DNA from: Thermoanaerobacter kivui
GTDB lineage: Bacteria; Bacillota; Thermoanaerobacteria; Thermoanaerobacterales; Thermoanaerobacteraceae
Direction: 5' to 3'
Length of the DNA stretch: 64,000 nt
Assembly (NCBI RefSeq): GCF_000763575.1
Contig: NZ_CP009170.1
Span: forward strand, 583,501 to 647,500
Notes under the pieces: generated by a model
What the model was told of the DNA's origin: nothing
Databases searched by the model: none
Seen by the model: the letters and a program-made list of their open reading frames with translations, nothing else
Position numbers and translations under genes: made by a program
Shown here: one piece after another, positions 12,818-58,542 of the stretch
Position numbering within the stretch: the stretch's first letter is position 1
Layout: each line of letters starts with the position of its first letter

Positions 12818-13322
12818 ATGTCTAAAAAGGCTGTGTCAATTCTATTAGTCGTGATAATTTCTCTCCTCTTAATTTCTTATCATTTTTATGAGTTTTTAAA
12901 AGTTTTTTCGAGTAATCCTTCCGATATGTGGAGCAGAGACTTGACTGTTGGTGAGAAAAATTTAAATATGCCTTCACCCCTTTTTTGGGATGGGGGAAGT
13001 GTATATGGAATTTGGACTAATGATACCGGTTTTGCAATATCGCAAATTTATCCTTCTCAAATGGCGTAAAAAAAATTTTCATAAAAAACTTTATTATCTT
13101 TCCTATGACATAAAAGCACAAAGGTGGTCTATTCCTGTAGAGTTATGCAGAGTAGGATTTGAGTTGTTTAAACATTTATTTAGAAAATTTAACACTGAGA
13201 TAATTGTTGTATCAGAAGTTGGAAATGAGAAACTTGATTCTCAAGAAATAATTGAAGAAATTATAAGTTTACTGAATTGCTATAAGAAAAGTTCAAAAAA
13301 TAAAAAAACTTTTAGAAAGTGA
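12818..13322 (+). pseudogene. Hypothetical membrane-anchored protein, frameshifted
   Basis: Start ATG follows AGAAGGG. Residues 4-20 form one hydrophobic segment (AVSILLVVIISLLLISY), so the product would be exported or anchored. The first frame stops at 13069 in a run of eight A residues, and the protein-like sequence continues in the next frame (FHKKLYYLSYDIKAQRWS...) to 13322. One indel at the A-run would restore a product of about 168 residues. Family not recognised. Slippage at the A-run is possible, but a simple pseudogene is likelier beside mobile elements. Confidence 0.5.
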
Positions 13323-13330
13323 GGTGTTTG

Positions 13331-14265
13331 ATGATAATAACCAAGAGAGTAGAACAAATTCAGATAAATAGAAATCATGAGCTGTGGCAGTATTGTGATA
13401 AAATATGCTTTGCGACAAAAAATCTATATAATTATGCTAACTACATCATAAGACAGAGTTTATAAATAACAACAAATGGATAAGATACAGAAAGCTCAAT
13501 GGAATATTAAAAGAACACGAAACTTATAAAAATCTGCCTGCCCAGACTGCACAACAAACCCTAAGACTTCTCGATAGAAATTGGAAATCATTTTTCAGAG
13601 CAATAAAAGAATGGGAAAAGGATAAAAAGAAGTTTAATGGTAGACCTAAACTACCAAAATATAAAAAGAAAAATGGTAGAAGTGTTGCTATTAATGGCAA
13701 AGTTATTAAGTCAATAAATCAGTATTACAACAAGAAAAAAGCAGAATTGATGAGCTATGTAGGTAATAGAGGTAGCAGCAACAGAATCAAAAAGTTATCA
13801 ATAAAAAGAGACAACAAGATAAAAGACCTTATGCACAAGATAAGTAGATTCATAGTTAATTGGTGTAAACAATACGACGTAGATACACTTGTAGTTGGAT
13901 ACAATTCTGGATGGAAGCAGGAAATAGAATTAGGAAAAATAAACAATCAAAACTTTGTAAGTGTTCCTTTTTATGACTTTATAAACATGCTCAAATATAA
14001 ATGCGAAGAAGAAGAGATAAACTTCATACTTGTAGAAGAGAGTTACACCAGTGGTTGCAGTTTTTTAGATGGAGAAGAAGTTAATAAAACAAACTACAAT
14101 CCACATCGAAGGATAAAGAGGGGACTATTTAAAAGTAATAAAGGAATTTTAATAAATGCAGATGTAAACAGCGCGTACAACATTATAAGAAAAGTATTCC
14201 CCAAAGCATTTGCGGAGGGGATAGAGGGTGTGGGGTTACACCCAGTTAGGCTGAACATAGCCTAA
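13331..14265 (+). pseudogene. tnpB: TnpB-family (IS605/IS607 OrfB) transposon nuclease, decayed copy 1
   Basis: The N-terminal region (KRVEQIQINRNHEL, LYNYANYI) stops at about 13465 through a one-base deletion relative to copy 2 at 56190. The second part runs in another frame through KYKKKNGRS and then skips directly to AINGKVIKSINQYY. The RuvC-I segment that should carry the first catalytic Asp is therefore missing. RuvC-II Glu (FILVEESYTSGCSFL) and RuvC-III Asp (LINADVNSAYNI) remain. It ends in GLHPVRLNIA inside the conserved right end. Catalytically dead as read. Confidence 0.85.
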
Positions 14266-14328
14266 CAAAGAATAGTGTTTAATAAAATTTTGAATGGTTT
14301 TTAATATTTTAAACACTATTCATAACCT
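14229..14328 (+). mobile_element. Right end of the tnpB element (putative guide-RNA scaffold), copy 1
   Basis: About 100 bp nearly identical to 56549-56648; the two copies diverge right after CATAACCT, which places the element end at 14328. It holds an 8-bp hairpin (14245-14252 with 14259-14266) and a 10-bp stem AATAGTGTTT / AAACACTATT (14271-14280 with 14311-14320). In TnpB systems the guide RNA is made from this end with the guide just outside the element. That role here is inference. Confidence 0.65.
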
Positions 14329-14396
14329 GGTAATTGTAGATGCGTTGTTTACCAATTTGTTTTATGCGCCTTTTCTAATAAAATAGCCCTTTATAC

Positions 14397-18699: not shown

Positions 18700-18773
18700 G
18701 CGGGTGTAGCTCAATGGTAGAGCCCCAGCCTTCCAAGCTGGTTACGTGGGTTCGATTCCCATCACCCGCTCCA
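18700..18773 (+). tRNA. tRNA-Gly(TCC)
   Basis: Acceptor GCGGGTG/CACCCGC, anticodon arm CCAGC-CTTCCAA-GCTGG, T-arm with TTCGATT, encoded CCA. Confidence 0.97.
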
Positions 18774-18777
18774 GTAT

Positions 18778-18854
18778 GCGCCTGTAGCTCAGTTGGATAG
18801 AGCAACGGCCTTCTAAGCCGTGTGTCGGGAGTTCGAATCTCTCCAGGCGCACCA
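18778..18854 (+). tRNA. tRNA-Arg(TCT)
   Basis: Acceptor GCGCCTG/CAGGCGC, anticodon arm ACGGC-CTTCTAA-GCCGT, T-arm TTCGAAT, encoded CCA. Confidence 0.97.
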
Positions 18855-18864
18855 TTTATTCTGT

Positions 18865-18942
18865 GGTGGATATAGTTCAGTTGGTTAGAGCGCCAGATTG
18901 TGGCTCTGGAGGTCGTGGGTTCAAGTCCCACTATCCACCCCA
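18865..18942 (+). tRNA. tRNA-His(GTG)
   Basis: Acceptor GTGGATA/TATCCAC with the extra 5' G opposite C73 that is diagnostic for His, anticodon arm CCAGA-TTGTGGC-TCTGG, encoded CCA. Confidence 0.96.
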
Positions 18943-18945
18943 TGC

Positions 18946-19020
18946 TGGGATGTAGCCAAGTGGTAAGGCACCAGACTTTGACTCTGGCATTCGTAGGTTC
19001 GAATCCTGCCATCCCAGCCA
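18946..19020 (+). tRNA. tRNA-Gln(TTG)
   Basis: Acceptor TGGGATG/CATCCCA, anticodon arm CCAGA-CTTTGAC-TCTGG, T-arm TTCGAAT, encoded CCA. The anticodon arm is duplicated in the leader at 18668. Confidence 0.97.
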
Positions 19021-19026
19021 ATACAT

Positions 19027-19102
19027 GACCCATTAGCTCAGGAGGTAGAGCACCTGCCTTTTAAGCAGGGTGTCCCGCGTTCGAGTCGCGGATGGGTCAC
19101 CA
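19027..19102 (+). tRNA. tRNA-Lys(TTT)
   Basis: Acceptor GACCCAT/ATGGGTC, anticodon arm CCTGC-CTTTTAA-GCAGG, T-arm TTCGAGT, encoded CCA. Confidence 0.97.
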
Positions 19103-19138
19103 TTTTCAAGAGATTACAGAGTAAGGGTTTAAATTTAA

Positions 19139-19225
19139 GCGGGAGTGGCGGAATTGGCAGACGCGCTAGATTCAGGTTCTAGTGCCTAAAGTGGCATATG
19201 GGTTCAAGTCCCTTCTCCCGCACCA
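19139..19225 (+). tRNA. tRNA-Leu(CAG)
   Basis: Acceptor GCGGGAG/CTCCCGC, anticodon arm CTAGA-TTCAGGT-TCTAG, long variable arm typical of Leu, encoded CCA. Confidence 0.97.
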
Positions 19226-19232
19226 TGAAAAT

Positions 19233-19308
19233 GCGGACATAGCTCAGTTGGTAGAGCATCACCTTGCCAAGGTGAGGGTCGCGAGTTCGAGTCTCGTTGT
19301 CCGCTCCA
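19233..19308 (+). tRNA. tRNA-Gly(GCC)
   Basis: Acceptor GCGGACA/TGTCCGC, anticodon arm TCACC-TTGCCAA-GGTGA, T-arm TTCGAGT, encoded CCA. Confidence 0.97.
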
Positions 19309-19323
19309 TTTTAATTAATTATT

Positions 19324-19400
19324 GCGCCCTTAGCTCAGTTGGATAGAGTGACAGGCTTCGAACCTGGAGGTCGTGGGTTCAAATCCTACAGGGCGCACCA
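19324..19400 (+). tRNA. tRNA-Arg(TCG)
   Basis: Acceptor GCGCCCT/AGGGCGC, anticodon loop CTTCGAA. The first pair of the anticodon stem (A27-G43) is mismatched and the D stem has a G-U pair, both tolerable. Encoded CCA. Confidence 0.92.
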
Positions 19401-19436
19401 GATGAAAGAAAGTTAAATAATAATATTATTTTCCGT

Positions 19437-19512
<76 letters not shown>

Positions 19513-32774: not shown

Positions 32775-32802
32775 TTTTACACAATGTCAAGAAGAAACAT
32801 GC

Positions 32803-32888
32803 TTCCCTACGCAGGCATTACCCTGACAGGTTCAAAGGGTCGGGAACGAATTCCCTCTCAGCCACTTCTTGGCTCCCATAGCACTCGT
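32803..32888 (-). promoter_or_regulatory. TPP riboswitch (THI element)
   Basis: Minus strand contains the diagnostic TPP cores GGCTGAGAGGGA, ACCCTTTGAACCTG and AATGCCTGCGTAGGGA in order. It binds thiamine pyrophosphate and would repress the thi genes behind it, of which only the thiM stub remains. Confidence 0.95.
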
Positions 32889-33015
32889 CTTATTTGGTTT
32901 TGTCCAATATGCTTAAAGTAATTATACCACAAACCTAAAAGAATTCAATAATTATTTTGAAAATGGTATCAATATTCAATGAGTTAAGTCTATATAGTGT
33001 AATTTCATCCATGAA

Positions 33016-55902: not shown

Positions 55903-56151
55903 ATGACAAATGAAGATTTTGTGAATTTTATTGTTGACAAATTTAATAGTTTTGAAAAAAGGTTTGACAACTTTGAAAAAAGATTGGATGGATTTGAAGA
56001 AAGATTTGATGAAGCTATTACAAAAATAAAGATGAAGTTAGAGAAAACACTAGATTAGCATGATAAAAAGATTACCGAATTAAACCAAAAATCACAGGAA
56101 GTAAAGTTGGATATAGTAGAGAAAAATAACAAAAAAGTTAAAATGTATTAA
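55903..56151 (+). pseudogene. Short coiled-coil protein remnant
   Basis: The frame MTNEDFVNFIVDKFNSFEKR followed by heptad-like FDNFEKRLDGFEERFDEAI stops at a TAG (56056) and continues in the same frame (HDKKITELNQKSQEVKLDIV) to 56151. The type resembles small coiled-coil accessory proteins common near mobile DNA in this group. No function assigned. Its end overlaps the left end of the tnpB copy 2 element. Confidence 0.5.
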
Positions 56152-56189
56152 AATTTTTTATAAAATATATTATCTAGAAAGTGAGGTGT

Positions 56190-56585
56190 ATGAAGATAAC
56201 AGTCAAGAGAGTAGAACAAATACAGATAAATAGAAATCACGAATTGTGGGATTACTGTGATAAAATATGTTTTGCAGCAAAAAATCTATATAATTACGCT
56301 AACTACATTGTAAGGCAGGAATTTATAAACAACCATAAATGGATAAGATACAGAAATCTTAATAAAATGCCAAAAGAACACGAAATGTACAAAAACTTAC
56401 CTGCTCAGACAGCGCAGCAAACTTTAAGACTTCTAGATAGAAACTGGAAGTCATTTTTTAGAGCAATGAAAGAATGGAGTAAAGATAAAAGTAAATTCAA
56501 CGGCAAACCAAAGCTACCAAAATATAAAAAGAAAAATGGCAGAAGTACTGTGGGGTTACACCCAGTTAGGCTGAACATAGCCTAA
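56190..56585 (+). pseudogene. tnpB: TnpB-family nuclease, internally deleted copy 2
   Basis: 131 residues: the N-terminal part is intact (KRVEQIQINRNHEL to KYKKKNGRS) and then joins directly to TVGLHPVRLNIA, the last residues of the protein. All three RuvC catalytic motifs are gone. The reading frame is still open, so a short N-terminal fragment could be made. RBS GTGAGGTGT. The deletion starts at the same codon (NGRS) as in copy 1. Confidence 0.85.
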
Positions 56586-56648
56586 CAAAGAATAGTATTT
56601 AATAAAATTTTAAATAGTTTTTAATATTTTAAATACTATTCATAACCT
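56549..56648 (+). repeat. Right end of the tnpB element, copy 2
   Basis: About 96% identical to 14229-14328. The outer stem reads AATAGTATTT / AAATACTATT (56591-56600 with 56631-56640): one G-C pair of copy 1 is an A-T pair here. Confidence 0.7.
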
Positions 56649-56688
56649 ACAGCTTTTAAAGAGAGCAGTAGTAAATTTGTAGACATCG

Positions 56689-56841: not shown

Positions 56842-58542
56842 ATGAAGAAAATACCCTATGGGATGTCCAATTTCAGAGCGATGAGAGAAGAAGGGTACCT
56901 GTATGTAGACAAAACGATGTATATAGAGAAGATAGAGAACTTAAATAGCAAATACCTGTTTTTCATAAGGCCGAGGAGGTTTGGGAAGAGTCTATTTCTT
57001 TCTACATTAGAGAACTATTATGACATAAACAATGAGAAAGACTTTGAGAAACTATTTGGCGACTTATATATAGGGAAGAACCCAACAAAGCTAAAGAACA
57101 GTTATATGATACTCAAGCTGAATTTTTCAGGCCTAAACACAGAAAACAAAGACCAACTAAAAGAGTCCTTTTTGTTAAGTGTGAAAAATTCAATAAATGC
57201 TTTATTAGACAGATACGAGGGTATATTAGAAAATACGGAAGAAATAAGGAAGAAAATTGACCAAATAACTGATATAAATGCAGTTATAATGACGATAATA
57301 AATGAAGTAAAAAAAGTAGGTAAAAAGATATACCTAATAATAGACGAATATGACCATTTTGCCAATGACATAATAGCGATGGGTGAGAGTGAATTTTACA
57401 GAGAGATAGTGAGGGCATCAGGTTTTGTAAGAGACTTTTATGAGACATTGAAGATAGGGACAGAGAGTGTAATAGACAGGATATTCATAACAGGGATATC
57501 CCCAATAATGTTGGACGACTTAACGAGTGGATTTAACATAGCATTAAATGTCACAATGGATTTAAGCTTAAATGAGATGCTAGGATTTACAGAAGAAGAA
57601 GTAGTGAAGATACTAGAAGAAGTAGGGATAGAGGAAAAAGAGAAAGAAAAATCATTAGAAGAATTAAAAGAATTATACGATGGTTATTTATTTAGTGCAG
57701 AAGCGGAGAAAAGGATATACAATCCCGACATGGTATTGTATTATCTTGACAGTATAGTAAGATACAAAAAACCGCCTAGAAATTTAATAGACGACAATGT
57801 AAAGACAGACTATGGCAGGTTAAACAGACTTACGATGAATGAAGAGAACAGGGCATTATTAGAGAGAATCATAAAAGAGGAAGGGATAGTAGCGGAGATA
57901 GTAACAAAATTTTCATTTGACAGGATGTACGACGAAGAATACTTTATATCGTTGTTATTCTATATGGGGTTACTAACGATAGAGAGGCAAGAAAAAACGA
58001 GATTATTTTTAAAAATACCCAATTACGTAATCAAGACAATAATGTGGGAATATATAGAAACGAATTTAAAGAAAGAATACAAAATTAATCTTGACCTAAA
58101 TGAGTTAAGGAAGACCATAGAAGAGATGGCGTATGAAGGGAGAATAAAACCGTATATAGAGTATATAAGCCAGAATGTGCTAAAGGTGCTTTCGAACAGG
58201 GACATAATAAACTTTGATGAAAAATATATCAAAGTGATATTAATTACGTATCTTGTAAACAGTAAAGCCTATAGGCCAATAAGTGAGAGGGAGACAGAAG
58301 GAGGGTATATAGACATATACTTGGAGAGGGACATAAGGATACCGGATGTAAAATACGAGTGGTTAATAGAGCTAAAATACATAAAGAAAAGTGAGAAAGA
58401 CAAAGTAGACAAGATAAAAGAAGAAGGTATAAGGCAGCTTAAGAGGTATAGAGAAAGCAGAGGGCTAAAAGAGAGAAAAGATGTAAAAGAAGCACTGCTT
58501 ATATTCATAGGAAAAGATGAGTACCAAGTAATTGAAGTGTAG
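56842..58542 (+). CDS. AAA-ATPase-like protein with C-terminal PD-(D/E)XK nuclease domain (DUF1703)
   Basis: 566 residues. The N-terminal AAA-ATPase_like domain shows YGMSNFRAMREEGYLYVDKT, the modified P-loop IRPRRFGKSLFLS and IYLIIDEYDHFAND as Walker B. The C-terminal DUF1703 nuclease has GGYIDIYLER and YEWLIELKYIKKSE, supplying the D...ExK active site. RBS AGGAAGGTGCAGAG. The family is frequent in multiple copies in clostridia and Bacteroidetes; its role is unproven, with defence or mobile-DNA functions suggested. Confidence 0.88.
   Translation: MKKIPYGMSNFRAMREEGYLYVDKTMYIEKIENLNSKYLFFIRPRRFGKSLFLSTLENYYDINNEKDFEKLFGDLYIGKNPTKLKNSYMILKLNFSGLNTENKDQLKESFLLSVKNSINALLDRYEGILENTEEIRKKIDQITDINAVIMTIINEVKKVGKKIYLIIDEYDHFANDIIAMGESEFYREIVRASGFVRDFYETLKIGTESVIDRIFITGISPIMLDDLTSGFNIALNVTMDLSLNEMLGFTEEEVVKILEEVGIEEKEKEKSLEELKELYDGYLFSAEAEKRIYNPDMVLYYLDSIVRYKKPPRNLIDDNVKTDYGRLNRLTMNEENRALLERIIKEEGIVAEIVTKFSFDRMYDEEYFISLLFYMGLLTIERQEKTRLFLKIPNYVIKTIMWEYIETNLKKEYKINLDLNELRKTIEEMAYEGRIKPYIEYISQNVLKVLSNRDIINFDEKYIKVILITYLVNSKAYRPISERETEGGYIDIYLERDIRIPDVKYEWLIELKYIKKSEKDKVDKIKEEGIRQLKRYRESRGLKERKDVKEALLIFIGKDEYQVIEV

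Follow-up and report, generated by a model that had tools for sequence, protein, structure and literature searches.

One TnpB guide RNA (ωRNA) that has been seen by cryo-EM is that of ISDra2 from Deinococcus, an IS200/IS605 element with a Y1 transposase (PMC10097598). Its scaffold overlaps the 3' end of tnpB, the 3' strand of stem 1 lies at −91 to −86 relative to the guide, and the loop of stem 1 pairs with the bases immediately preceding the guide. In the guide RNAs of 'Derived' TnpBs, whose RuvC-III motif is NADXN, a pair of stem-loops lies on the 5' side and a single one on the 3' side, no more than 10 nt from the guide; a 3' hairpin that ends 7 nt before the guide is reported for TnpB guides by Nety et al. 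in 2023 (PMC10278001). ISFba1 is an IS607 transposon with a TnpB of about 400 aa and a 3'-end scaffold; its reRNA sits downstream of the gene and contains RAGATH-18, and its TAM is AGGAG/GAGGG (PMC11061315). Some IStron derivatives, such as BcISt1 (PMC4227781), spread without any ORF, as do MITE-like elements in general.

Here we analyze a stretch of 64,000 nucleotides of Thermoanaerobacter kivui DNA (the window), in which two decayed transposon copies end in nearly identical hairpins. An earlier sequence-only reading had noted a paired base change between them and had proposed that the structure is still in use, for example as a TnpB guide-RNA scaffold acted on in trans. The two hairpins form the tail of a TnpB guide RNA, an established kind of RNA, and the matching changes in them trace to its scaffold. 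We put at about 0.9 the probability that both right ends are IS607-family transposon ends carrying the 3' scaffold of a TnpB ωRNA, with a structure inherited by dead derivatives. The comparison yields a model of how an IS607-type guide RNA of thermophiles is built, based on 35 copies and including a covarying pseudoknot. The new part is a family of elements outside the window that seem to be guide-only. These ORF-less relatives would show a transposon shedding both enzymes while retaining the guide, and they make it testable whether TnpB guide RNAs act in trans, helping transposon parasites persist.

As in ISDra2, the scaffold described here overlaps the 3' end of tnpB, and both the 3' strand of stem 1 and the pairing of its loop are placed nearly equally relative to the guide; unlike ISDra2, the element belongs to IS607, and the hairpins between stem 1 and the guide are arranged differently. 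The element resembles the 'Derived' TnpBs of Nety et al. in its RuvC-III motif (NADVN), in the pair of stem-loops on the 5' side of its scaffold and in a 3' stem-loop close to the guide; it apparently lies outside the set assayed there. The terminal hairpin, H3, ends 7 nt before a boundary fixed by empty sites, that is, less than 10 nt from the guide. ISFba1 shares the transposon family, the TnpB length and the 3'-end position of the scaffold; it differs in having its reRNA beyond the gene, in RAGATH-18 and in its TAM, for which the left flanks here suggest an ATAT-like sequence. The Rfam search gave no RAGATH-18 match, the motif's presence in the library being unconfirmed.

Two decayed copies in the window

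Both copies lie on the forward (+) strand. Copy 1 (13143–14328) is an element decayed by frameshift and deletion. Its tnpA remnant (13143–13368), recovered by tblastn of the intact TnpA, is the frameshifted C-terminal part of an IS607-type serine transposase, and a search for its left end found none. The decayed tnpB (13319–14265) has a frameshift near aa 46–49, has lost aa about 127–207, the RuvC-I Asp included, and ends at a stop codon within H2. The 138-nt 3' guide-RNA scaffold (14191–14328) is complete, as judged from the R1 model (173 bits) and from folding. It comprises H0; stem 1 (GGGTGT/ACACCC, 14226–14243), indicated by both fold and covariation; H2 (14245–14266), which overlaps the end of tnpB; H3 (14270–14321), with outer arms at 14270–14282 and 14309–14321, both hairpins being placed by folding; and the pseudoknot strand 14324–14328, which pairs with the stem-1 loop (14233–14237) according to covariation. 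From the element boundary and TnpB biology, the flanking DNA at 14329–14348 would be the 20-nt guide.

Copy 2 (56115–56648) is a 534-bp derivative of an IS607 element, made by internal deletion, that consists of the left end, the tail of tnpA, tnpB codons 1–123 and the right end. The tnpB 5' remnant (aa 1–123) occupies 56178–56546. Its H0 is deleted, and stem 1 (56546–56563) is broken, with TAC in place of GGG and three of six pairs lost; H3 (56590–56641) is present. The corresponding empty site, GGATA[T/G]ACAGC, is found in four relatives, and by these sites the expected 20-nt guide is the flanking DNA at 56649–56668.

Intact elements, boundaries and targets

Intact sister elements are about 1.96 kb long and encode an IS607-type serine transposase, on which the family placement depends (TnpA: NF033518 transpos_IS607, 184 bits against a cut-off of 110; PF00239), together with an RNA-guided TnpB (NF040570, 227 bits against a cut-off of 100). 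Intact TnpB frames of 398–452 codons occur in 18 copies. Because their stop codon falls inside H2, 63–64 nt before the right end, the end of the gene and the RNA scaffold share DNA.

Precise empty sites in relatives were found for four insertions, namely the intact elements T_G004 and T_G003a, window copy 2 and the ORF-less M_G005b, with agreement at T_G003a except for a small repeat difference adjoining the site. Insertion caused no target duplication at T_G004, window copy 2 or M_G005b. The left flanks mostly end in ATAT or GTAT, otherwise in CCT or TCT, and from these sequences an ATAT-like TAM at the left flank is likely. A GG-containing target, which is typical of IS607 itself and of IStrons and does not define the family, was looked for in the left flanks and not seen.

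The paired change and covariation across the family

The right ends at 14229–14328 and 56549–56648 differ at four of 100 positions, in line with the 96% identity first reported. Two of the differences (G14277/A56597 and C14314/T56634) are partner bases in the outer stem of H3, so that copy 1 has a G-C pair at 14277/14314 where copy 2 has an A-T pair at 56597/56634. The double change is thus as the sequence-only reading described it; the outer stem that it placed there exists, with a length of 13 bp instead of 10. The remaining two differences, both G>A, fall at model columns 102 and 106, within the inner stem or the loop of H3, and all four run from G/C to A/T. Folding of the + strand is stronger than that of shuffles, with z of −5.6 and −6.9 for the two right ends. 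With four changes placed at random among G/C sites, two partners would be struck with probability 0.14 when every stem counts and 0.04 when only the outer stem does; over all sites the values are 0.04 and 0.015. At these probabilities (0.04–0.14), the compensatory signal in two copies is genuine, yet weak evidence taken alone, and the outer-stem pair was singled out post hoc.

The wider set of right ends has 35 copies, 33 of them distinct, from 14 genomes of the class, and a third full copy lies in the window's own genome at C1:918888–918987. Across the 33 distinct copies, the pair in question reads G-C in 28, A-C in three, G-U in one and A-U in one. For the null, inferred changes on the tree of these 33 right ends were re-dealt randomly to branches over 40 nested pairs. 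In all nested stems, 24 cells are unpaired against 47 expected (p=0.008), and three pairs are compensated by changes on both sides against 0.86 expected (p=0.04). The outer stem of H3 has eight unpaired cells against 18.8 expected (p=0.026) and two compensated pairs against 0.37 (p=0.023). The same test gives no constraint on pairing in the inner stem of H3, and for all of H3 together the result falls short of significance (p=0.11). The sequence-only reading had named neutrally accumulating unpaired changes as evidence against itself; the outer stem does not show them, and the inner stem does, or nearly so. In the pseudoknot, none of 165 cells is broken among the collected copies. Selection on base pairing in the family overall is supported. 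H3 alone cannot tell RNA from DNA, since the strand asymmetry of G-U versus A-C does not reach significance (p=0.12 with every stem included, and no asymmetry in the outer stem); it is the remainder of the scaffold that points to RNA.

The scaffold at remote TnpBs

The predicted fold runs in the order H0, stem 1, H2, H3, and the stem-1 loop GGGUU is complementary to AACCU immediately before the guide. The scaffold model also matches at TnpBs of about 50% identity in archaea and other phyla (L067, L061, L064 and others). The pseudoknot persists in several clades with other letters in each (GGTTA/TAACC, GTGAAC/GTTCAC, GACTA/TAGTC and TGGCA/TGCCA), its complement lying 72–84 nt 3' of stem 1. Stem 1 in these clades was chosen by eye, so its choice is no test; what tests the pseudoknot is that the complements are perfect and sit at a constant offset. 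A strict 5-base complement is absent at four of 14 loci (L067, L065, L068 and L053), the first three being compatible by eye, though unscored, once G-U pairs are allowed. The guide-RNA scaffold proposed for the hairpin is thus supported by the architecture at remote TnpBs, the covarying pseudoknot and the tree-based pairing test.

To the observed anatomy, boundaries, empty sites and covariation, TnpB biology adds a putative course of transcription, guide use and homing. In an intact element, a transcript through the end of tnpB would fold into H0, stem 1, H2 and H3, the stem-1 loop would pair with the five bases preceding the guide, and the guide would be host DNA past the right end. Once TnpA has excised the element, TnpB would use the guide to cut the vacated site, and the element would be restored there by copying. 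Pairing would have been kept by selection on the guide RNA during the mobile phase of the elements.

A second TnpB group in the class, of about 40% identity (L165–L168, L049 and L170), has the same layout of stem 1 and pseudoknot with GTGAAC/GTTCAC. At L093 (G003:C1:806356–806465), the scaffold model matches weakly, at 40 bits; the locus has GTTAGGATAAAAGTATCCTAAC as a hairpin, its terminal hairpin is GC-rich, and it may be a different TnpB scaffold.

ORF-less elements in relatives

ORF-less elements of about 340–350 bp occur as eight copies in five genomes and two families (G000, G005 twice, G007 twice, G024 twice and G026), the left boundaries of three second-family copies not being fixed by empty sites. 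From its position in the class, the second family is probably Caldicellulosiruptor. The layout is a left end, a 150-nt domain and a complete scaffold, as in L041:1740–2088 (G000:C1:918639–918987), which has relatives in L037–L040 and L132–L134. The 150-nt domain has no match in Rfam. It covaries, with 96.8% of cells paired against 36–47% in slid controls, a figure inflated by the prediction of the domain structure from these very sequences; in seven pairs both members have changed, compared with 2.2 in shuffles, none of 500 shuffles reaching seven. Decayed relics of the domain lacking a complete right end were seen at L058 (G000:C1:145126–145270) and L130 (G007:C26:2122–2260).

In these elements the scaffold is now noncoding, and none of 216 cells is broken in H0, stem 1, the pseudoknot and H2; swapping right ends with intact elements is another way in which it could have stayed whole. 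The left end of five copies contains the promoter-like TTGACA/TTGATA-17-TAAAAT/TAGAAT, less clear in the second-family copies, which is rare in shuffles (P 0.000–0.054) and absent from the left ends of intact elements. An intact TnpB occurs alongside ORF-less elements in G007, G024 and G026, and not in G000 or G005. Searching plasmids with the ORF-less element gave one 53-bp match, within an Anoxybacillus tnpB, and with the right end none; in viral contigs, scanning by 16-mers brought up five matches, none of which the R2 model supported (E below 0.75).

Like BcISt1 and MITE-like elements, these elements spread without ORFs; unlike them, they have no group I intron, keep the guide scaffold and have added a new structured domain. 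Their sequences suggest mobile genes that carry only the guide and would borrow both TnpA and TnpB. We offer only tentatively the fuller proposal of a distinct mobile guide-only class in Thermoanaerobacter/Caldanaerobacter-type genomes and the second family, which would be moved by TnpA in trans and transcribed from the left-end promoter as the 150-nt domain plus scaffold, with the flank as guide and a neighbor's TnpB recruited for homing. Standalone IscB guide RNAs are known in other bacteria. No paper naming the ORF-less elements or trans-acting TnpB guides was found in a literature search that covered only a minority of subscription journals.

Alternative explanations

That the compensatory pair arose by chance, two of the four G/C to A/T changes landing on partners regardless of how the rest of the structure behaves, is possible, although we lean against it. 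The chance values for four changes on G/C sites allow it, and three other copies have an unpaired A-C at that very pair; against it, a second pair (columns 85/126) reads G-C, A-C and A-T in other copies, the G-U intermediate occurs in one copy at the first pair, and the outer stem overall does better than the null (p about 0.025). A structure acting at the DNA level, with the arms serving as transposase binding sites or end repeats for TnpA and having no RNA role, is unlikely. It draws on the imperfect AT-rich inverted repeats at IS607 ends (PMC4227781), on the weak AT-rich repeat between left and right ends here, which overlaps the H3 arms (P 0.003–0.05 versus shuffles), and on the failure of G-U versus A-C to favor RNA in H3. 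That H0–H2 double as coding sequence in intact copies also speaks against an RNA reading. What tells against a DNA hairpin is that stem 1, H2 and the pseudoknot strand recur and covary as one unit at remote TnpBs, and that ORF-less elements vary less in the scaffold core (14 of 76 columns) than in their left ends (29 of 42; p=8e-8, the left-end alignment being the least certain part). Moreover, IS607 transposases are serine recombinases, which are not known to use single-strand hairpins. A right end that is part of a group I intron or a transcription terminator is hardly credible: IS607 IStrons are known in Firmicutes (PMC4227781), but nothing in the Rfam search matched a group I intron, even with E allowed up to 10, and the ORF-less element has no terminator-like site. 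Neither an RF00028 match nor an intron core was found, and when the window, the elements and the right ends were searched against Rfam, no guide RNA, group I intron or riboswitch was matched at these elements.

The TnpB guide-RNA scaffold remains the preferred reading, and the question of present use concerns the window copies themselves. That decayed copies of this genome still supply working guides to TnpB in trans is very unlikely. Copy 1 does retain a complete scaffold, and three other genomes combine ORF-less scaffold elements with an intact TnpB. The window's genome, by contrast, has no intact TnpB, its sole TNB-domain match above cut-off being copy 1, which is without the RuvC-I aspartate. 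The scaffold of copy 2 is broken, and conservation is no greater than among intact elements: the window copies have right ends 96% identical at 84% tnpB identity, matching intact-element pairs of similar divergence such as G026a and G024b (tnpB 0.837; scaffold 0.961/0.968). Outer-stem pairs are broken about equally in copies with intact and decayed tnpB (3/234 versus 2/117). On these four grounds, continued use of the hairpin here is not supported. The claim that it was preserved while the nuclease decayed is likewise not supported: nothing places the pair change later than the decay, and the copy with the A-T pair is the one that lost H0 and half of stem 1. Use in trans, which does not suit this genome, does fit the ORF-less elements of other genomes, which lend that idea indirect support. 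The observation of the sequence-only reading holds, and its interpretation holds in part. The window shows a TnpB guide-RNA scaffold of the ordinary kind, carried by two dead IS607 copies, and selection on their mobile ancestors is the simplest account.

Other features of the window include a tRNA gene cluster (18700–19509), a TPP riboswitch on the minus strand (32787–32889) and, directly downstream of copy 2, a gene with AAA-ATPase_like and PDDEXK_9 domains (56842–58542; PF09820, PF08011).
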